Shown: piece by piece, positions 17,731-28,310 of the stretch | Layout of the letters: the number at the start of each line of letters is the position of its first letter | Numbering within the stretch: the stretch's first letter is position 1 | Assembly: GCF_004799685.1 (NCBI RefSeq) | Contig: NZ_CP031311.1 | Location: forward strand, 2,108,001-2,172,000 | Length of the DNA stretch: 64,000 nt | Direction of reading: 5' to 3' | Source of the DNA: Halobellus limi | Lineage (GTDB): Archaea; Halobacteriota; Halobacteria; Halobacteriales; Haloferacaceae | The notes under the pieces: generated by a model | The model's database searches: none | The model's input: the letters and a program-made list of their open reading frames with translations, nothing else | Told to the model about the DNA's origin: nothing | Position numbers and translations under genes: made by a program

Positions 17731-18327
17731 ATGGAATTTGACGGAGAGTTCGAGTTAGACAGCGTACCGCCCGAGAAAGCGTGGATCGTTCTGTCGGACC
17801 CGATGGCGGTCCGAGACTCGCTGAAGGGGTGTCGCTACATCACTCCAATGGACGACGACTTCAACTTCGACGAGTACGAGGCCGAAGAGGACGTCGAGAT
17901 GCTGCCGGACGCGGACCCGGAGGTCGTCGCCGAGCGGGCCTTCGTCGAGGGGCAGAAGTACGCGGCGCTGATGCAGGTCGGCGTCGGGAGCGTGAAGCCG
18001 CGCTTCGAGACGACCGTCACCATCGACGAGCGCGACGGCGAGAACTTCAGGATGATCGCGACCGGCGGCGGCGACGCCTCCGGGAGCAGTTTCAGCATGG
18101 AGTCGGGGATGCAGATCCACGAGCTCGAAGACGGGGAGGGCTCCCGGATCGAGTGGTGGACCGAGGCCGACATCTCGGGGCGGATCGCCCAGCTCGGCTC
18201 GCGGGTCATCAACCCGGTCGCCAACAAGATCGTGAACAACTTCTTCAGTAGCATCGAGCAGCAGATGACGGACGTCGACGAGGACACGAGCTCCGGCGTC
18301 ACCGACAGACTCAGGAACATGTTATGA
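17731..18327 (+). CDS. coxG: CO dehydrogenase accessory protein CoxG (SRPBCC fold)
   Basis: A 198-residue CoxG/START-like protein beginning MEFDGEFELDSVPPEKAWIV, with the GCRYITPMD block early and FRMIATGGGDASGSSFSM in the middle. CoxG proteins are linked to aerobic CO dehydrogenases and probably help membrane association. It is the first gene of the operon, and its stop overlaps the coxM start (ATGA). The C-terminal helix (NKIVNNFFSSIEQQM) is typical. Here coxG precedes the structural genes rather than following them as in Oligotropha. Confidence 0.88.
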   Translation: MEFDGEFELDSVPPEKAWIVLSDPMAVRDSLKGCRYITPMDDDFNFDEYEAEEDVEMLPDADPEVVAERAFVEGQKYAALMQVGVGSVKPRFETTVTIDERDGENFRMIATGGGDASGSSFSMESGMQIHELEDGEGSRIEWWTEADISGRIAQLGSRVINPVANKIVNNFFSSIEQQMTDVDEDTSSGVTDRLRNML

Positions 18328-19211
18328 AAGCGGCACCGTTCGAACACCACGAGCCGACGTCGGTCAGTCAGGCAGTGAGCCTCATCGAGAGCCTCGACGA
18401 GCCGACGATCCTCGCGGGCGGGCAGAGCCTGGTTCCGATGCTCCGGTTCCGGCTCGCCCGTCCGGACACGGTCGTCGACATCAACGGCATCGACGAACTC
18501 GACTACCTCCGCGAGGAGGACGGCTACCTCAAGATGGGCGCGCTCGCGCGCCACGCCGACGTCGAGGACGACGAGCTGATCGAGGAGAAGTACGGGAGCT
18601 TCGCGGACGCGGCCCCGCTGGTCGCGGATCCGCAGATCCGAAACCGCGGGACGATCGTCGGATCGATCGCGCAGGCCGACCCGAAGGGCGACTGGGGGTC
18701 GATCCTCATCGCCCACGACGGCGAGGTCGTCGCCGCGGGTCCCGACGGCGAGCGGACGATCCCCATCGACGAGCTGTTCCTGCTCCCGTACGACACCTCC
18801 CTCGGCGAGGACGAACTCATCACGGAGGCGCGCGTCCCGACCCCCGAAGAGCGGGAGGGCAGCGCCTACCACAAACTGAAACGGAAGACCGGTGACTACG
18901 CGATGGCCGGCGTCGCGGCCCGGCTGATCCTCGACGAAGACGGACGAATCGAGACGGCGGGCATCGGGATGACCGCGGTTGATATCACCAACGCGCGCGC
19001 CGCCGACGCCGAGGAGCGTCTCGAAGGCGAGCGACCCGGCGCCGACCTGTTCAAATCGGCGGGGGAACTGGCGGCCGAGCAGTCGAACCCCGAGTCGGAC
19101 GAACACGGCGACGCGTCGTACAAGGAGCGGATGGTGGAGGTGCTGACCCAGCGGGCGCTCGGCGACGCCGCCGAACGTGCGGGGGTCACGAAACGGAGGG
19201 CAACACCGTGA
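18324..19211 (+). CDS. coxM: CO dehydrogenase medium subunit, FAD-binding
   Basis: A 295-residue flavoprotein of the xanthine oxidase family that passes electrons from the Fe-S subunit to the quinone pool. The two FAD-binding signatures are present: [16 protein letters not shown] near residue 30 (the AGGQS motif) and a [15 protein letters not shown] stretch near residue 110 (the TIGG-like motif, here TIVGS). It overlaps coxG upstream and the coxS GTG start downstream. The C-terminal 45 residues are more acidic than in bacterial CoxM. Confidence 0.93.
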
Positions 19212-19984
19212 CTGACGAACGCGAAATCACGCTGACGATCAACGGAACCGAACGCACGCTCGAAGTCGAACCGCGACGCCTGCTCGTCCACGCGATCCGC
19301 GAGGACCTCGACATGACGGGCACGCACATCGGCTGCGACACCGGCAACTGCGGGGCCTGCACGGTCCTGCGGGACGGCGAACCGATCAAGTCCTGTATGA
19401 TGTTCGCCACGCAGGCCGACGGCAGCGAGATCATGACCGTCGAGGGGATGGAGGACCTCCCCGAGGCCGGCGAGGAACTCCACCCGCTTCAGGAGGGGTT
19501 CCACGAGGAACACGGCCTGCAGTGCGGGTACTGTACGCCCGGGATGTTGATGTCGGGGAAGGCGCTGCTGGATGAGAACCCCGACCCCGACGAGGGGGAG
19601 ATCCGCGACGCGATCAGCGGCAACCTCTGTCGGTGCACCGGCTATCAGAACATCGTGCGGTCGATCGAGTACGCCGCCGAACGGCTCGACGAGAAGGCGG
19701 CAGCCGACGGCGGAACCGTCGCGGAGAGCAGCGGCGACAGCCCGGTCGCGGGCGACGGCGACAGCGCGAACGCGGCCGACCCGACGCGAGCGCCGACGGC
19801 GACCGAGGAGGCGGCGGCCGGCGAGTTCGACTGCGGCGTCGAGAACTGCTGTGGCGGCCCCGCTTCCGACGCGACACACGTCGAAGGCGCGGACCCGCAG
19901 TTCGAGCGCGTACCCGAGGAGGGCGACGATCACGGAACCGGGCGGAGCGACGGCGGCGGAACCGAGGAGGCCGACGACCAATGA
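19208..19984 (+). CDS. coxS: CO dehydrogenase small subunit, two [2Fe-2S] clusters, with extended Cys-bearing tail
   Basis: A 258-residue protein with GTG start (GTGA overlap with coxM). The plant-type cluster cysteines are C43, C48, C51 and C63. The helical-domain cluster uses C106, C109, C141 and C143 ([18 protein letters not shown]). The family normally ends near residue 160. Here about 95 extra acidic, low-complexity residues follow, containing a compact Cys group ([10 protein letters not shown]209, C214, C215). The tail may be a halophilic linker or a metal-binding appendage. Its stop overlaps the coxL ATG. Confidence 0.93.
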
Positions 19985-22482
19985 GCAGCGACTCGGAGTT
20001 CACGACCGAACCGACGGAGTATCAACACGACGACGACGGCGGCCCGCAACCGGAGAAACACTGCGGGCACGGCCGCGGTGGAATGGGCGAGGAAGTGGCC
20101 CGGAAGGAGGACAAGCGCTTCATCACCGGCCGCGGCAACTACGTCGACGACATCAAGAAGCCGGGGATGCTCCACTGCGAGATCGTCAGGAGCCCGCACG
20201 CCCACGCCCGAGTCGAGGAGATCGACGGGTCGCGCGCGATGGATCTGGACGGCGTCGTGGCCGTGTTGACGGCCGACGACCTGCTGGAGCACGACCTGGC
20301 GACGATGCCGACGCTGATGGACGACACCCAGGACGTCCTGGTCAACGAGAAGGTGAAGTTCCAGTCCCAGGAGGTCGCCGCCGTCATCGCCGAGGACCGG
20401 TACACGGCGAAGGACGGGGCCGAGAAGGTCGAGGTCGACTACGAGGTGCTCGACCCCGTCGTCGACGCGAAGGAGGCGCTCGAGGCCGACGCGCCGGTCA
20501 TCCGCGAGGAGCTCGACGACCAGGAGGACAACCACATCTTCGACTGGGACACCGGCGACAAGGAGGAGACAGAGCGGGTCTTCGAGGAGGCCGACGTCAC
20601 GGTCGAAGAGCAGATGGAGTACCAGCGGATCCACCCCGCGCCGATCGAGACCTGCGGCGCGGTCGCCGACTGGGACCCCGGAAAGGACAAGATGACGGTC
20701 CACATGACGTCGCAGGCGCCGCACGCCCACCGGACGCTGTTCTCGCAGGTGTCGGGCATCCCCGAGCACAAGGTCCGGATCGTGAGCCCGGACGTCGGCG
20801 GTGGCTTCGGCAACAAGGTCCCCATCTACCCGGGCTACGTCGTCGCCGCCGCGGCGTCGTACGTCCTGGAACGACCGGTGAAGTGGATCGAAGAGCGCTC
20901 GGAGAACATCCAGACCACGGGCTTCGCCCGCGACTACGACATGACGGGCGAGGTCGCCGCCACGGAGGACGGCGTCATCGAGGGCGTGAAGGTCGACGTG
21001 CTGGCGAACCACGGGGCGTACAACGCGGCGGCCCAGCCCTCGAAGTTCCCGGCCGGGTTCTTCAACATCTTCACCGGCTCCTACGACGTCGAGGCGGCCT
21101 ACGGGTCGCTGACGGGCGTGTACACGAACACCGCGCCGGGCGGCGTCGCCTACCGGTGCTCCTTCCGCGTCACGGAGGCCGTCTATCTCATCGAGCGGAT
21201 GGTGAAGGTGCTCGCGGACGAACTCGACGTCGATCCGGCGGAGATCCGCCGGCGGAACTTCATCCCCTCGGACGCGTTCCCCTACGAGAGCGCGACCGGC
21301 TGGAACTACGACTCCGGCGACTACGAGAAGGCCCTCGACAAGGCCCTCGAGATGGCCGACTACGAGCACTACCGCGAGGAGCAAAAGCGCCGCATCGAGG
21401 AGGACGCGGACAAACTGCTGGGAATCGGCATCTCCTCGTTCACCGAGATCGTCGGCGCGGGGCCCGGCAAGCAGTGCGACATCGCCGGCATCGAGATGTT
21501 CGACTCCGCGGACCTCCGCGTGAACCCGACCGGGAACGCGGTCCTCCGAATCGGCGTCCAGACGCAGGGGCAGGGCCACGAGACGACGTTCGCCCAGATC
21601 GTCGCCGAAGAGCTGGGGATGGACGTCGACAACATCGTCGTCGAGCACGGCGACACCGACACCGAACCGTACGGCCTCGGCACCTACGGCTCCCGGTCGA
21701 CGCCCGTCGCGGGCGCCGCGGCCGCCGTCGCCGCGCGGAAGGTCCGCGACAAGGCGAAGTCGATCGCCGCGAACGAACTCGAAGCCGCCGAAGAGGACAT
21801 CGAGTGGGACCGCGAGTCCGGCGAGTTCCACGTCGTCGGCGCGCCGGACCGCTCGATCACGATCACCGAGATCGCCGCCGGGGCGTACATGAACCACCCC
21901 GGTTCCGAAGAGCCCGGATTGGAGGCGGTGAACTACTACGACCCGCCGGAGATGACGTACCCCTTCGGCTCCTACATCGTCGTCGTCGAGGTCGATCGCG
22001 AGACCGGCGAGGTCGATTTCGAGAAGTTCGTCGCGGTCGACGACTGCGGCAACCGCATCAACCCGATGATCATCGAGGGGCAGATCCACGGCGGCCTCGC
22101 GCAGGGCATCGCGACCGCGATGCTGGAGGAGGTCACCTACGACGACAACGGCAACGTCACCGGCGGTGACTTCATGAACTACCTGCTGCCGACGGCCCAC
22201 GAGATCCCCGAGTTCGAGACCGGACACACGGTCACGCCGTCGCCGCACCACCCGATCGGTGCGAAGGGCGTCGGCGAGTCACCGACCGTGGGGTCGCCGC
22301 CGGCCATCGTCAACGCAGTGGTCGACGCGATGTCCCACGCCGGGACCACCCACGTCGAGATGCCGATGACGCCCGACGTCGTCTGGGAGGCGCTCGACGA
22401 GGCCGGCCTGGCGCTCGACCCGAGTCAGAACGTGAGCTTCGAGTTCGAGGGCGGACAGAGTGAAGAACCAGCCGACGACTGA
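19981..22482 (+). CDS. coxL: Form I aerobic CO dehydrogenase large subunit (Mo-Cu)
   Basis: An 833-residue catalytic subunit that oxidises CO to CO2 at a Mo-S-Cu centre with molybdopterin cytosine dinucleotide. The diagnostic loop AYRCSFR lies at residues 390-396, so C393 would bind copper; form II enzymes have AYRGAGR instead. The catalytic Glu is in GAKGVGES (E766). Other family blocks are [20 protein letters not shown] and [10 protein letters not shown]. An N-terminal CGHGRGGMG segment precedes the usual start of the domain. ATG 19981 overlaps the coxS stop. Confidence 0.96.
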
Positions 22483-22626: not shown

Positions 22627-23775
22627 ATGACAGAGAACGAACCCACCGAGACGAGCGGCGATCCGCCGCATCTAGCGGCCGTCAGCGACGGCGACGTCGC
22701 CGCGCTGGAAGCAGAACTCGCGGACCGAGGCGAGGCGTACGCCCGCGTGACGATCGTCCGCCGCGAACCACCGGTGTCGGCGAACGTCGGCGACCGCGCG
22801 GTCGTGACCGGGGACGGCGAACTCCACGGCTGGATCGGCGGTGCGGCCTGCGCGCAGACGACCGCCATCAGCGAGGCGAAAGCCGCTATCGACGACGGGA
22901 AGCCGCGCTTGGTCGGTATCGCGCCCGATCCCGACGAGGTCGATCGCCCGGGGCTGGAGGCGTTCCCGATGCACTGCCACAGCGAGGGCGTCCTCGAACT
23001 GTTCGTCGAGCCGGTGAACCCGACGCCGGAGCTGCTGATCGTCGGCGACTCGCCGGTCGCGCGGTCGCTCACGCGGATCGCGGGCGAACTGGCCGTCGAC
23101 GTCGTCCTCGTCGATCCGGACGCCGGCGACGACCACGCCGCCGACCGGGTGATCGAGAGCACCGATCCCGACGCCGTCGCCGACGCCGTCGGCCGCTCGC
23201 CGCTGGTCGTGGTCGCGTCGATGGGCAAGTACGACGCCCGCGGGGTCGCCGCCGGCGTCGCGGCCGACGCCTCGTACGTCGGCCTCGTCGCCAGCGACAC
23301 CCGGAGCGGGGAGGTGATCGAGCGTGCCGCGACGGTCCTCGATACGGACCCCGAGCGTGTTCGGGGGGCCGTGACGAACCCCGCCGGCGTCGACGTCGAG
23401 GCGTACACGCCCGCCGAGATCGCGGTGAGCATCCTCGCCGAGGTCGTGGACGCGCGAGCGGCCGCGGCCACGACCGCGAGCCATCCGCGGCGGTCGCCGG
23501 TCGGAGAGGAGTCGGCGACCGAGGACGGCGCGAACACCGAAGAGACGTCGGAGAGCCGGAACGGGGCGGATTCTGGGGAATCGACGAGGGACGCGGCGGA
23601 AGACGAGACCGCGACACCCGAACTGGCGACCGATCCCGTCTGCGGGATGACGGCCGATCCCGAGACGGCACCGGCGGTCGAACACGGCGGGGAGACGTAC
23701 TACTTCTGCTGTGAGGGCTGTGCGGACTCGTTCCGCGCGGAGCCGGAATCGTACCTGGAACGGGAGGCAGCGTGA
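22627..23775 (+). CDS. XdhC/CoxF-family maturation protein fused to a YHS metal-binding domain
   Basis: A 382-residue protein. Residues 15-80 match the XdhC/CoxI N-terminal domain (VTIVRREPPVSANVGDRAVV, GGAACAQT). Residues 125-280 form a Rossmann-like XdhC C-terminal domain (LLIVGDSPVARSL, VASMGKYD). An acidic linker leads to a YHS domain at 336-382 with C339 in DPVCGM and C361, C362, C365 in FCCEGC. XdhC proteins bind Moco and sulfurate it. YHS domains bind soft metals such as copper. The fusion could serve both Mo sulfuration and Cu loading; this is inference. Its stop overlaps coxD. ATG 22597 is an alternative start. Confidence 0.85.
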   Translation: MTENEPTETSGDPPHLAAVSDGDVAALEAELADRGEAYARVTIVRREPPVSANVGDRAVVTGDGELHGWIGGAACAQTTAISEAKAAIDDGKPRLVGIAPDPDEVDRPGLEAFPMHCHSEGVLELFVEPVNPTPELLIVGDSPVARSLTRIAGELAVDVVLVDPDAGDDHAADRVIESTDPDAVADAVGRSPLVVVASMGKYDARGVAAGVAADASYVGLVASDTRSGEVIERAATVLDTDPERVRGAVTNPAGVDVEAYTPAEIAVSILAEVVDARAAAATTASHPRRSPVGEESATEDGANTEETSESRNGADSGESTRDAAEDETATPELATDPVCGMTADPETAPAVEHGGETYYFCCEGCADSFRAEPESYLEREAA

Positions 23776-24761
23776 GCCGGAACGCGTTCGCGTCGCTGTC
23801 GGCGTCGGACCTCGAAGACCGCTTCGAGGCCGAGGCGTACGTCGCGGACGACCGGACGGTCACGACCGTCCACCTCGCGCTGACGCTCGGCCGGCCGCTG
23901 CTCGTCGAGGGGCCGCCGGGGAGCGGGAAGACCGAACTCGGCAAGGTCCTCGCGAGCGCGTTCGACACGGAACTCATCCGACTGCAGTGTTACGAGGGGC
24001 TGACCGCCGAGAACGCGCTCTACGAGTGGAACTACACGAAGCAGCTACTCGCGGTGCAGGCCGACGAGGGGACGGTCGCGGGCGCGTCGGCCGTCTCCGA
24101 GGCGTCGGAACCGGGCGTCGACGAGCCGTCCCCGGACGGGACGACGCGGAACCGCTCGGTCTTCGACGAGGAGTACCTCCTCGAACGGCCGCTCCTTCGG
24201 GCCCTCACTGCCGGCGGCGACACGCCGCCGGTGCTGCTGGTCGACGAGATCGACCGCGCGGACGAGGAGTTCGAGGCCTTTCTCCTGGAGCTGCTCTCGG
24301 ACTTTCAGGTGTCGATTCCGGAGTTCGGCACCGTCAGCGCCGACCGGCCCCCGATCGTCGTGCTCACGTCGAACCGCACGCGGGGGCTGTCGGACGCGCT
24401 GAAGCGACGGTGTCTGTACCTGCACGTCGAGCCCCCCGACTTCGAGGACGAGTACGAGATCGTCCGCCGGAAGGTGCCGGAGCTCGACGCGGCCGTCGCC
24501 GCCGAGGTGTGCGCCGTCGTCGGCCGCCTCCGCGAGGAGGCGTTTCTCAAACAGCCGGGCGTCGCCGAGACGCTCGATTGGGCCCGAGCCGTGGCACAAC
24601 TGCGACACGACGACGCGGACCGACCGCTCTCCGCCGAGGAGATCGAGCGGACGCTCGGGTGTCTGCTCAAGGAGGCCGAGGACTTCGACCGGATCGACAC
24701 GGAGCTGCTCGAACAGCTACGAACGGCCGCAGAGAAAGCCGAAGAACGTGTCGAAGCCTGA
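23772..24761 (+). CDS. coxD: MoxR-family AAA+ ATPase CoxD
   Basis: A 329-residue AAA+ protein with GTG start overlapping the previous stop. Walker A GPPGSGKT (residues 47-54), Walker B VLLVDEID (154-161), and sensor 1 in VLTSNRTRG. An acidic insert of about 30 residues (104-132) separates the first helical pore region from FDEEYLLERPLLRAL. In bacteria CoxD helps build the Mo-S-Cu centre and works with the vWA protein CoxE, encoded next here (gap of three bases). Confidence 0.92.
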   Translation: MSRNAFASLSASDLEDRFEAEAYVADDRTVTTVHLALTLGRPLLVEGPPGSGKTELGKVLASAFDTELIRLQCYEGLTAENALYEWNYTKQLLAVQADEGTVAGASAVSEASEPGVDEPSPDGTTRNRSVFDEEYLLERPLLRALTAGGDTPPVLLVDEIDRADEEFEAFLLELLSDFQVSIPEFGTVSADRPPIVVLTSNRTRGLSDALKRRCLYLHVEPPDFEDEYEIVRRKVPELDAAVAAEVCAVVGRLREEAFLKQPGVAETLDWARAVAQLRHDDADRPLSAEEIERTLGCLLKEAEDFDRIDTELLEQLRTAAEKAEERVEA

Positions 24762-24764
24762 CCG

Positions 24765-26300
24765 ATGAACGCGAACGCGGGGTGTGACACGGAGTCGGAC
24801 GCGGGGTGTGACACGGAGTCGGACGCGGGGTGTGACACGGAGTCGGACGCGGGGTGTGACACGGAGGCGAGCGCGACGAACGACTCCGTAGCGCCAGACG
24901 GGGCAGGCGGCGTCGGCGCCGGTGACTCGATCCCTCCCAGCGACTCGACTCCCGACGGCGTTCCGGACTTCCCGGCGGCGCGGCGGCACGTCCTGATCGA
25001 ACTGCTCAGGCTCGTCGCGAACCTCCGGAGCGAGAACGTCACCGTCCCCCCCAGCGACACGATGGCGGCCGCGCGGGCGCTCTCGGTGGTCGGCCTCGAC
25101 GACCGCGACCGCGTCGAGGACGCGCTGCGGGCGACACTGCTCTCCGATCCGGTCGACGCGGACGCCTTCGAGTCCGCGTTCCCGACGTTCTGGCACCGGC
25201 TCCGGTCGGGACTGAGCGCCGTCGCGACCGATCACGACGGGCCGACGGCCGGCGAGGACGGAGAGGGGGACGAACGGGCGGCGACGGAGGCAAACGGCTC
25301 CGAGACCGACGGCACAGAATCCGGAACGCTGGCGGACGCGGAACCCCCCGACGTCGACGGATCAGCCGACGAGGACGGACGCGTGGACGTCCGGATTCCG
25401 ACGGAGCGCCGTCACGCGACGGGCGACAGGCCGGAGTCGACAGGCGAGAGCGACGCGCGGCGGTACAGCGCCGTCGGCGGACGCGAACGCGTCGACGTCG
25501 ACACGGCGCCGTTGACGCGGGGCGAGGTTGCCGCCATCGACCGCTTCGTCGACGCGCTGGCGACGGTTCCCGGTCGTCGCCGGGAGCGATCGGCCGCCGG
25601 CGATCAGGTCGAGGCCAGGCGGGCGCTGCGGGCGAGTCTGGCGACCGGCGGCGCGCCGATGGAGCTCCCGCTTTCGCGACCGACGCCGAGCGAGCTGCGG
25701 TGCTGTCTGCTCGTCGACGTGAGCGGGTCCGTCCTCGATACGATCGACCGGAGCGTCCTCCTGGCCTTCGCAGACCGGTTGCACGACAGCGCCCGCGACG
25801 CCGGCGTGTTCCTCTTCGATACGGACCTCGTCGACGTCACCGAGCAGTTCGATCGGGGCGACGGCGACCCGGCGGCGGCGCTGCGAGAGGCTGAGGTCGA
25901 GTGGGGCGGCGGGACGAAGATCGGCGGGGCGTTCGCGACGCTCCGGCGGGAGCACCCCTACGCGGTCGACCGGCGGACGGTCGTCGTGGTCGTCAGCGAC
26001 GGTCTCGACGTCGGCGACCCGGACGTGCTAGCCGACGGCGTCACGTGGCTGGCCGACCGCGCCGGTGCGGTCGTCTGGCTCAACCCGCTGGCGGTCTCGC
26101 CGGCGTTCGAACCGCGGTCCCGCGGGATGTCGACGGCCGTCCCGTACGTCGACGCCCTGTTCGGGTTCGCCGAGCCGGCCGACCTCGCGGAGGCGGCCCG
26201 GCAGCTCGAACAGCGCGGACTGGGAGGGACCGTCGGCTACGAGCACGATTCGCGCCGGTCCCCGCGCTCGGCCGACGGGGACGGAGGTGATCGGTCGTGA
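24765..26300 (+). CDS. coxE: vWA-domain protein CoxE with N-terminal Cys repeats
   Basis: A 511-residue CoxE homologue. The C-terminal von Willebrand A domain has the MIDAS motif DxSxS at D318-S322 (LVDVSGSVLD) and VVSDGLD later. A CoxE-like helical region begins near residue 70 (RRHVLIELLRLVANLRSENV). Residues 4-34 are four near-identical AGCDTESD units, each with one Cys, an unusual extension. A long acidic linker follows (about 160-230). It should pair with CoxD as an ATPase/vWA chaperone. Its stop overlaps the next GTG start. Confidence 0.9.
   Translation: MNANAGCDTESDAGCDTESDAGCDTESDAGCDTEASATNDSVAPDGAGGVGAGDSIPPSDSTPDGVPDFPAARRHVLIELLRLVANLRSENVTVPPSDTMAAARALSVVGLDDRDRVEDALRATLLSDPVDADAFESAFPTFWHRLRSGLSAVATDHDGPTAGEDGEGDERAATEANGSETDGTESGTLADAEPPDVDGSADEDGRVDVRIPTERRHATGDRPESTGESDARRYSAVGGRERVDVDTAPLTRGEVAAIDRFVDALATVPGRRRERSAAGDQVEARRALRASLATGGAPMELPLSRPTPSELRCCLLVDVSGSVLDTIDRSVLLAFADRLHDSARDAGVFLFDTDLVDVTEQFDRGDGDPAAALREAEVEWGGGTKIGGAFATLRREHPYAVDRRTVVVVVSDGLDVGDPDVLADGVTWLADRAGAVVWLNPLAVSPAFEPRSRGMSTAVPYVDALFGFAEPADLAEAARQLEQRGLGGTVGYEHDSRRSPRSADGDGGDRS
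24775..24870 (+). repeat. 24-bp in-frame tandem repeat in coxE
   Basis: Four units of 24 bases (the first three identical, the fourth diverging at its last bases) encode AGCDTESD repeats at the CoxE N-terminus. The unit length is a multiple of three, so copy-number change keeps the frame. Confidence 0.9.
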
Positions 26301-27130
26301 ACGGGCTCCTCGACGCGGTTCGAGAACGTCTGGAACCCCACGTCACCGACGAGACGAGCGTCGAGCGGGTCACCGTGGGCGACGCGGCGATCCTCGTGGA
26401 ACTGACTGACGGCGAGTCGACGGCGGCCGGCCTGGCACACCGCCCGCCCGGCGATCGACCGGCGGCGACCGACTGGACCGTCGAAACGCTGCTCGACGGC
26501 GTGGCAGCGGACGGCACGGGGAGAGACTCGGAGGTCCGGGAGGCCCGAACCGCGCGGGCGATCGGCATCGCGGCGATGAACGCGCTCTCGACCCCGCTCG
26601 TCGACTGGCGAGCCGGCGACTCGATGGCGCTTCTGGCGGACGACGTCGGCCGAATCGTGACCGTGGGACTGTTCGGTCCCGCGTTCCGGAAGTTCGACGA
26701 CGTGGCGGTGAACGTGATCGAACGCGAGGCGATCGAGGACGTTCCCGATCCCGACGGCGTGAAAGTCGAGGCGTTCACCCCCGAGGAAACCGACGCCGCG
26801 ATGGCCGGCGCGGAGGTCGTCTTCGTGACCGGCTCGGCGTTCGTCTACGGGGGCGTCGAGTCGTACCTCGACGCCGCACCGACGTCTGCGACCGTCGTCG
26901 TCATCGGTGCCACGGCGTCGTTCCTCCCCGGTCCCCTGTTCGAGGCGGGCGCGGACGTCGTCGCCGGGGCGACGGTTTCCGACGCTGTAGGGGTCAGAGC
27001 GGCGCTGCGGCGGGGCGACTGCGGGACCGACCTGCACGACGCGGGACTGACGAAGGTGTACGTCGCCCGGGCGACGCCTTCTGGGATTCGACTCGACGCG
27101 AGCGGCGGGACCGGGAGTTCCAACGGATGA
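26297..27130 (+). CDS. DUF4213/DUF364-like Rossmann protein of the cox operon
   Basis: A 277-residue protein with GTG start overlapping the coxE stop. The N-terminal half resembles DUF4213 (ARTARAIGIAAMNALSTPLV). The C-terminal half resembles DUF364 (VGLFGPAFRKFDD, VFVTGSAFVYGG, VVVIGATASFLPGPLF). Relatives are annotated as putative metal-chelation domains and appear near metal or cofactor genes. Its place inside a CO dehydrogenase operon suggests a maturation role, possibly Mo or Cu handling. There is no direct evidence for the ligand. Confidence 0.72.
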   Translation: MNGLLDAVRERLEPHVTDETSVERVTVGDAAILVELTDGESTAAGLAHRPPGDRPAATDWTVETLLDGVAADGTGRDSEVREARTARAIGIAAMNALSTPLVDWRAGDSMALLADDVGRIVTVGLFGPAFRKFDDVAVNVIEREAIEDVPDPDGVKVEAFTPEETDAAMAGAEVVFVTGSAFVYGGVESYLDAAPTSATVVVIGATASFLPGPLFEAGADVVAGATVSDAVGVRAALRRGDCGTDLHDAGLTKVYVARATPSGIRLDASGGTGSSNG

Positions 27131-27137
27131 CACATCT

Positions 27138-28310
27138 ATGACACAGAGCAACTGGAGCGTGCCCGAGACGGAAGTCGTACAGCAGATACGTGACCGACTC
27201 GACGGCGATGGGATCGACGTCCTGGCGACGATCGTCGACGTCGAGGGGAACGCCTACCGCCGACCGGGGGCGAAGATGCTCCTCGACGAGGGCGGGGCCG
27301 GCGTCGGCAGCATCACCGCCGGCTGTCTCGAAGACGAACTGCTCTCGGTCGGCGACCGAGTCCGGGAAACGGGCGAGCCGGAACTGGTCACCTACGACCT
27401 GATGAACGACGACGGCGAGGACGTCTGGGGCCTCGGCGTCGGCTGCAACGGCGTCATCGAGGTCCTGCTCGAACCCCTGACCGAGACCTACCGCTCCGCG
27501 GTCGAGGCGTTCTTCGGCGGGCGCGACGTGGCCGTCGTCACCGTCCTCGATTCGGGCGGACGGTTCGAGCAGGGCGACCGCGTCTACTACTACCCCGACA
27601 CGGGATCGCTGGTCTCGCCCGACGGCACCGACGCGAGCGGGTGGCCGGTCGAGTCGCTGGCGGACCCCGCGGGCGAACTCGCCGCGCGGGGGAAGGCGGG
27701 GACCGTTTCGCTGCCGGACGGGGGCGACGAACTGACGGTCTTCGTCGACGGACTCGCCGCGCCGGACGAGTTGGTGGTCTTCGGAACCGGACACGACGTG
27801 CGGCCGGTCACGGAGTTCGCGACGAAGAACGACTTCCGCGTGACCGTCGTGGGCTTCCGCGGCGCGGTCGACCTCGCCGAGCGCTTCCCCGAGGCGGATC
27901 GGATCGTCACCACGTCGCCGGCGGCCGTGGGCGAGGACCTCGAACTCGACGACCGGACGTACGCGGTCGTGATGACGCACAACTTCGTCGACGACCAGTT
28001 GACCGTCGAGTCGCTGCTGGACGCCGGCGTCCCGTACGTCGGCGTGATGGGTCCCCGCGAACGCTTCGAGCGGATGCTGGAGGCGTTCGAAGCGGACGGA
28101 CGGAAGTTCGGGGAAGCGGAGCTATCGACGGTGTACACCCCCGTCGGACTCGACCTCGGCGGCGGGTCGCCGTTCCAGATCGCCCACAGCATCGTCGCGG
28201 AGGTGCTCGCGGTCTCGAACGGGCGAACGCCGCGTCACCTCAAGAGCCGCGAGGAGCCGATCCACGAGCGCGTCGACGTCGAGTCCGACGCGGACCCACC
28301 CGCGCAGTAG
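27138..28310 (+). CDS. coxF: XdhC/CoxF-family Moco maturation protein
   Basis: A 390-residue full-length XdhC-type protein. The N-terminal domain has VLATIVDVEGNAYRRPGAKM and AGCLEDELL; the family Cys lies in the latter. A GCNGVIEVLLEPL block follows. The C-terminal Rossmann domain has VFGTGHDVRPVTEFA and VVMTHNFVDDQL. Members bind Moco and insert the equatorial sulfur before transfer to the apoenzyme. It is the second XdhC of the operon, and unlike the first it lacks a YHS domain. It closes the plus-strand cox run. Confidence 0.87.
   Translation: MTQSNWSVPETEVVQQIRDRLDGDGIDVLATIVDVEGNAYRRPGAKMLLDEGGAGVGSITAGCLEDELLSVGDRVRETGEPELVTYDLMNDDGEDVWGLGVGCNGVIEVLLEPLTETYRSAVEAFFGGRDVAVVTVLDSGGRFEQGDRVYYYPDTGSLVSPDGTDASGWPVESLADPAGELAARGKAGTVSLPDGGDELTVFVDGLAAPDELVVFGTGHDVRPVTEFATKNDFRVTVVGFRGAVDLAERFPEADRIVTTSPAAVGEDLELDDRTYAVVMTHNFVDDQLTVESLLDAGVPYVGVMGPRERFERMLEAFEADGRKFGEAELSTVYTPVGLDLGGGSPFQIAHSIVAEVLAVSNGRTPRHLKSREEPIHERVDVESDADPPAQ

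Follow-up and report, generated by a model that had tools for sequence, protein, structure and literature searches.

The [Mo-S-Cu] centre of aerobic Mo-Cu CO dehydrogenase (CODH) has been described as unprecedented in nature (PMC4240915). The sole model for the route of copper to this centre that we found in the literature is a phytate-bound copper store. In Oligotropha (Afipia) carboxidovorans OM5, the CODH of a coxF::km mutant contains no copper, and CoxF was proposed as the copper donor, with the motif MCPSHGTM put forward by Pelzmann and colleagues as its copper site (PMC4240915). Since the mutant enzyme also contains much MoO3 (PMC4240915), the defect is not one of copper alone. An earlier review noted that CoxF clusters with XdhC proteins encoded in other CODH operons, and that CoxI clusters with PaoD (PMC2997495). 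For YHS domains, one Asp and three Cys have been proposed for metal binding, and the adenylyl cyclase of M. phlei is activated when its YHS domain binds copper (PMC4626032). TRASH domains sense copper in the archaeal regulator CopR (PMC7830388) and are contained in archaeal CopM-type copper chaperones (cited in PMC7830388).

The window analyzed here, the whole stretch of 64,000 nucleotides of Halobellus limi DNA, contains a cox operon in which a CoxF-type protein ends in a YHS domain. The M. phlei YHS domain and the TRASH domains of CopR and CopM are of the same or a closely related type, small and with conserved Cys, and they are copper responsive; they differ in being attached to a cyclase or a regulator, or in being free-standing, rather than taking part in molybdoenzyme maturation (PMC4626032 and PMC7830388).

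The CoxF-type gene and its operon

The open frame at positions 22627 to 23775 (+ strand) encodes 382 residues followed by a stop codon, and its assignment as a coxF-type gene rests on the translation, Pfam profiles, orthologues, and a phylogenetic tree. Its product consists of an XdhC_CoxI domain (residues 32 to 96, positions 22720 to 22914; PF02625, 50 bits), the CoxF signature M-x-C-x-S-x-G (MHCHSEG, residues 115 to 121, positions 22969 to 22989; identified by alignment and from PMC4240915), an XdhC_C Rossmann domain (residues 136 to 273, positions 23032 to 23445; PF13478, 74 bits), an acidic linker (residues ~288 to 327, positions 23488 to 23607), and the YHS domain (residues 335 to 379, positions 23629 to 23763; PF04945, supported by conservation of the fusion). 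All three domains exceed their Pfam cut-offs, the YHS domain with 51.2 bits against a gathering cut-off of 30.3. The AlphaFold2 model (mean pLDDT of 86) is confident for the core and the YHS domain (pLDDT of ~91 to 97) and predicts a disordered linker (pLDDT of <50); the Thermomicrobium orthologue, which has a short linker, reaches a mean pLDDT of 92. The closest folds in the PDB were the XdhC-family structures 2we7, 2we8, and 3on5, in a comparison that was dominated by the Rossmann domain and barely tested the YHS domain. The Cys residues of the protein are at positions 75, 117, 339, 361, 362, and 365, and a preliminary description of this DNA, which had placed a C-terminal YHS domain with C339, C361, C362, and C365 on the first XdhC of the operon, agrees with both the Pfam match and these positions. 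A chance fusion or a frame artefact was rejected, because the reading frame and the Cys are conserved across phyla.

The genes of the operon are tightly packed on the + strand in the order coxG (17731 to 18327; Pfam COXG), coxM, encoding the FAD subunit (18324 to 19211; Pfam), coxS, encoding the 2Fe-2S subunit (19208 to 19984; Pfam), coxL (19981 to 22482), coxF-YHS, coxD, encoding an AAA+ ATPase (23772 to 24761; Pfam/NCBIfam), whose start and the coxF stop share 4 bases, coxE, encoding a VWA protein (24765 to 26300; Pfam VWA_CoxE), a DUF4213/DUF364 gene (26297 to 27130; Pfam), and a gene for a second XdhC (27138 to 28310), which is CoxI/PaoD-like and lacks a YHS domain according to Pfam, alignment, and tree. 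MoeA-like and MocA-like genes lie directly upstream of the operon on the opposite strand. The nearest relatives with a name belong to Halobellus, in line with a haloarchaeal window. Since CoxL matches TIGR02416 (aerobic CO dehydrogenase) with 1210 bits, above the cut-off of 991, and contains AYRCSFR, the enzyme is of form I, the Mo-Cu type. The cox operon of Oligotropha likewise contains coxM, coxS, coxL, coxD, coxE, and coxG, although in the order L-D-E-F-G instead of the L-F-D-E of the window; its CoxF (WP_013913733, plasmid pHCG3) shares with the window protein the XdhC_CoxI and XdhC_C domains, the CxSxG loop, and the association with form I CODH but has neither the linker nor the YHS domain.

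Several lines of evidence bear on the identity of the protein. (i) In a tblastn search of pHCG3, it matched a single place, CoxF, and left CoxI unmatched. (ii) In the tree, CoxF-type proteins form a clade of their own, separate from every other XdhC (SH-aLRT of 99), and the window protein clusters with Oligotropha CoxF, away from CoxI-like XdhC. (iii) C117 is invariant across all XdhC proteins, whereas the two-residue insertion that follows it and creates C-x-S-x-G is private to CoxF in the alignment (~180 of 181 CoxF-type proteins versus 0 of 55 other XdhC); the window loop aligns with MCPSHGTM of Oligotropha. The CoxI/PaoD/XdhC sulfuration chaperones share the two-domain core and C117 but lack the insertion and the YHS domain and are not limited to copper enzymes; the window protein meets neither mark of the CoxI/PaoD type, that is, CoxI-like grouping and a core without an insertion after C117. 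Judged from the pHCG3 match, the loop, and the tree, all of them sequence evidence, the window gene is an orthologue of CoxF that carries an added C-terminal YHS domain. Of the earlier proposal that a Moco-sulfuration XdhC is joined to a soft-metal-type domain, the YHS fusion within a cox operon thus stands, whereas the generic sulfuration XdhC gives way to a member of the CoxF branch, as placed by the tree and the CxSxG loop. The second XdhC is likely the sulfuration factor, and sulfuration is more likely served by this CoxI-like protein together with CoxD than by CoxF. One protein initially counted as CoxF (L174) fell outside the CoxF clade, has no form I coxL, and was moved to the non-CoxF set.

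Two further features of the operon were recorded. The C-terminal tail of the window CoxS contains CGVENCCGG, and a census of this tail found the motif C-x4-CC in 21 of 22 haloarchaeal form I CoxS and in 0 of 115 other CoxS; its DNA pattern occurs a single time in the whole genome, and the tail is possibly a second soft-metal site in the same system. The DUF4213/DUF364 gene, which overlaps coxE by 4 bases and for which Pfam suggests heavy-metal chelation, is present at 19 of 22 haloarchaeal cox loci and at none of 33 bacterial cox loci.

Linkage of the fusion to form I coxL and its history

The samples, in which many genomes are MAGs, were searched with profiles built on CoxF, which could have missed a YHS fusion to a strongly divergent XdhC. 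(i) Among 292 Halobacteria, form I coxL above the TIGR02416 cut-off was found in 28 genomes and a CoxF-type gene in exactly those 28, always adjacent (hypergeometric p of 1e-39), and no CoxF was present in any of the 34 Halobacteria with only sub-cut-off, non-form-I coxL homologues. Of the 28 haloarchaeal orthologues, 27 retain the YHS domain, at 50 to 81% identity, and the fusion is therefore far beyond chance; the remaining haloarchaeon (L034) has CoxF beside form I coxL and has lost the domain. (ii) Form I occurs in 49 of 231 Chloroflexota genomes and CoxF in 48 of these, the 49th locus ending at a contig edge; no CoxF was found in the genomes of this sample that lack form I. All 49 Chloroflexota loci with an intact tail region, one genome having two copies, carry the YHS domain. 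(iii) The 296 Actinomycetota, in which CoxF matches were followed and form I was not searched genome-wide, gave 40 CoxF matches, of which 36 carry YHS and 4 are truncated at a contig end. The form I site is visible at 34 of these 40 loci, coxL ends before the site at 5, and in the last case (L218) form I coxL lies on a different contig of the same genome. (iv) In 299 Pseudomonadota, all 13 genomes with form I have CoxF, and 1 of the 13 (Paraburkholderia) has the YHS domain. (v) An independent scan of GTDB contigs retrieved 80 loci with the CoxF loop, which have form I wherever the coxL site is readable, and all six plasmid-borne fusions adjoin a CODH large subunit (the call for Caballeronia SBC2 rests on its near-identical sister SBC1). 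Where no coxL was in reach of the locus, the rest of the genome was examined; most of these genomes, including those of KSB1 (L067) and Bacteroidota (L090), have form I coxL elsewhere, and two MAG contigs (L088 and L115) remained unresolved.

The pooled nonredundant set comprises 194 CoxF-type proteins, 167 with YHS. None of 74 other XdhC proteins carries the domain, and 44 of these are encoded in loci with form I coxL, including the second XdhC of the same operons. The linkage of the fusion to form I coxL is near-exclusive. This co-occurrence had been predicted in the preliminary description, and it held wherever it could be tested (Halobacteria, Chloroflexota, Actinomycetota, plasmids, and GTDB loci); the finding that would have refuted it, a fusion common beside copper-free molybdenum hydroxylases, was looked for, and no YHS fusion beside form II or xanthine-dehydrogenase-type enzymes was found in the sampled genomes. 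The XdhC-YHS proteins of Thermomicrobium roseum, Paraburkholderia, Caballeronia, Deinococcus sp. AJ005, and Natronorubrum bangense, which are annotated as "XdhC family protein" or not at all, have the architecture of the window protein and stand beside the large subunit of aerobic CO dehydrogenase; they differ from it in linker length and, in Deinococcus, in degenerate YHS Cys. In a separate observation, the form I CoxL variant AYACSFR, in place of AYRCSFR, pairs with the CoxF loop NPCLSGG (L188, L192, L193, L226, L229, and L231); CoxL site and CoxF loop thus vary together.

CoxF carries a YHS domain in most microbes outside the Proteobacteria. It is absent from CoxF in 12 of the 13 form I Pseudomonadota sampled and from that of Oligotropha, the only CoxF with mutant data. 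The domain is thus an added module that is not required everywhere for copper insertion. The module is probably ancestral in CoxF: the tree fits a single ancestral fusion that would have disappeared from Proteobacteria once the Paraburkholderia branch had diverged, with the root within the clade unresolved.

Candidate metal site and possible roles of the YHS domain

Three of the four tail Cys that the preliminary description regarded as a metal set are strongly conserved in the 167 fusions, namely, C339 (162/163), C361 (161/165), and C365 (165/165), whereas C362 is present in only 98 of 165; D336 (158/163) is the fourth candidate in its place. D336, C339, C361, and C365 meet the Asp and three-Cys proposal for YHS domains and are candidate ligands in the window protein, with Cu(I) binding inferred in the absence of binding data. 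On plasmids, the nearest relatives of the window YHS domain belong to P-type ATPases for heavy metals and silver. Within the same genome, YHS/TRASH domains occur in Lrp-type regulators beside genes for CopA-like ATPases (L004 and L006), and another is found in a permease (L003). The genome also encodes, at C4:85170 (L001, 1504 to 1647, − strand), a free-standing YHS protein of 48 residues that adjoins an Lrp-TRASH regulator; it resembles the copper chaperones of the CopM type known from other Archaea and is a candidate copper donor to the YHS domain of CoxF. In the CoxF of Deinococcus sp. AJ005 (L040, 9004 to 10065), the domain is kept and C339 and C361 are lost (SPVDGE...YFTCANC), with form I coxL intact.

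We favor, at a probability of roughly 0.7, the reading that the YHS domain of this form I operon is a built-in acceptor and donor of Cu(I) for the Mo-S-Cu site; Cu(I) binding, its hand-over, and the role of C117 are all inferred. The domain, on its flexible linker, would capture cytosolic Cu(I) through C339, C361, and C365, perhaps with D336; the XdhC-type core would dock on folded apo-CODH and shield the Mo-sulfido group; and Cu(I) would be handed to CoxL at its Mo=S/Cys-S site, perhaps via C117 in the MxCxSxG loop, a transfer that CoxD and CoxE may power or license. This role is supported by the orthology to CoxF, the copper-free enzyme of the coxF mutant, the form I linkage, the conserved Cys and Asp, and the copper roles of YHS/TRASH domains elsewhere. 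Counting against it are the absence of the domain from proteobacterial CoxF, its loss in one haloarchaeon, the lost Cys of Deinococcus, YHS folds with other metals, and the MoO3 in the mutant. A wider version remains tentative and falls short of even odds: CoxF-YHS, as the ancestral type of CoxF, would act as a self-contained Cu(I) chaperone-insertase, in which the triad loads the metal and the CxSxG Cys relays it to the sulfurated Mo site, Proteobacteria having later swapped the loader for another copper source, with the haloarchaeal CoxS tail (CGxExCCGG) as an extra copper relay.

The same conservation and linkage leave some room for the domain to be a copper sensor or gate, in which copper binding switches CoxF on and sulfuration and assembly proceed only when copper is available. 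The activation of the M. phlei cyclase (PMC4626032) and copper sensing by archaeal TRASH regulators (PMC7830388) are precedents, and a sensor likewise predicts form I exclusivity and tolerates the loss in Proteobacteria. We nevertheless consider it unlikely, since CoxF itself is tied to copper delivery and not solely to sulfuration (PMC4240915) and a donor needs fewer assumptions, though sequence data cannot separate the two. The identity of the metal is in turn only inferred, because domains of this fold need not contain copper: that of L24e binds Cd, and that of toluene-4-hydroxylase is metal-free (PMC4626032). A structural Zn or metal-free module that docks CoxF to CoxL, CoxD, or CoxE would fit these cases, the Deinococcus copy that kept its domain despite two lost Cys, and the finding that phenol hydroxylase subunits were the only solved structures with YHS homology in a sequence search; it is rendered quite improbable by a Cys/Asp set that is nearly invariant in 167 fusions from several phyla and by the linkage to the one copper enzyme of the family. 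A role of the YHS Cys as carriers of persulfide sulfur for Mo, rather than of copper, is very improbable. It would suit the need of form I CODH for a sulfido ligand, the homology of CoxF to XdhC, and the action of XdhC proteins in sulfuration (PMC2997495), but sulfurated copper-free hydroxylases use XdhC without YHS (0 of 74 non-CoxF XdhC) and YHS domains otherwise occur in metal proteins.

Relevance for copper-type CODH

CoxF and the YHS domain are each already known, and our literature search found no paper joining XdhC with a YHS domain; the strict association of the fusion with the Mo-Cu enzyme and its orthology to CoxF appear to be new. Since no enzyme other than the copper-containing form was found next to this fusion with a copper-type domain, the fusion offers a testable answer to the question of the enzyme's copper source. 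An XdhC with both CxSxG and a YHS domain is a genome marker for copper-type CODH that helps in cases where the form of coxL cannot easily be assigned. If the YHS domain is the copper loader, the source and the path of the metal can be tested with one small domain.
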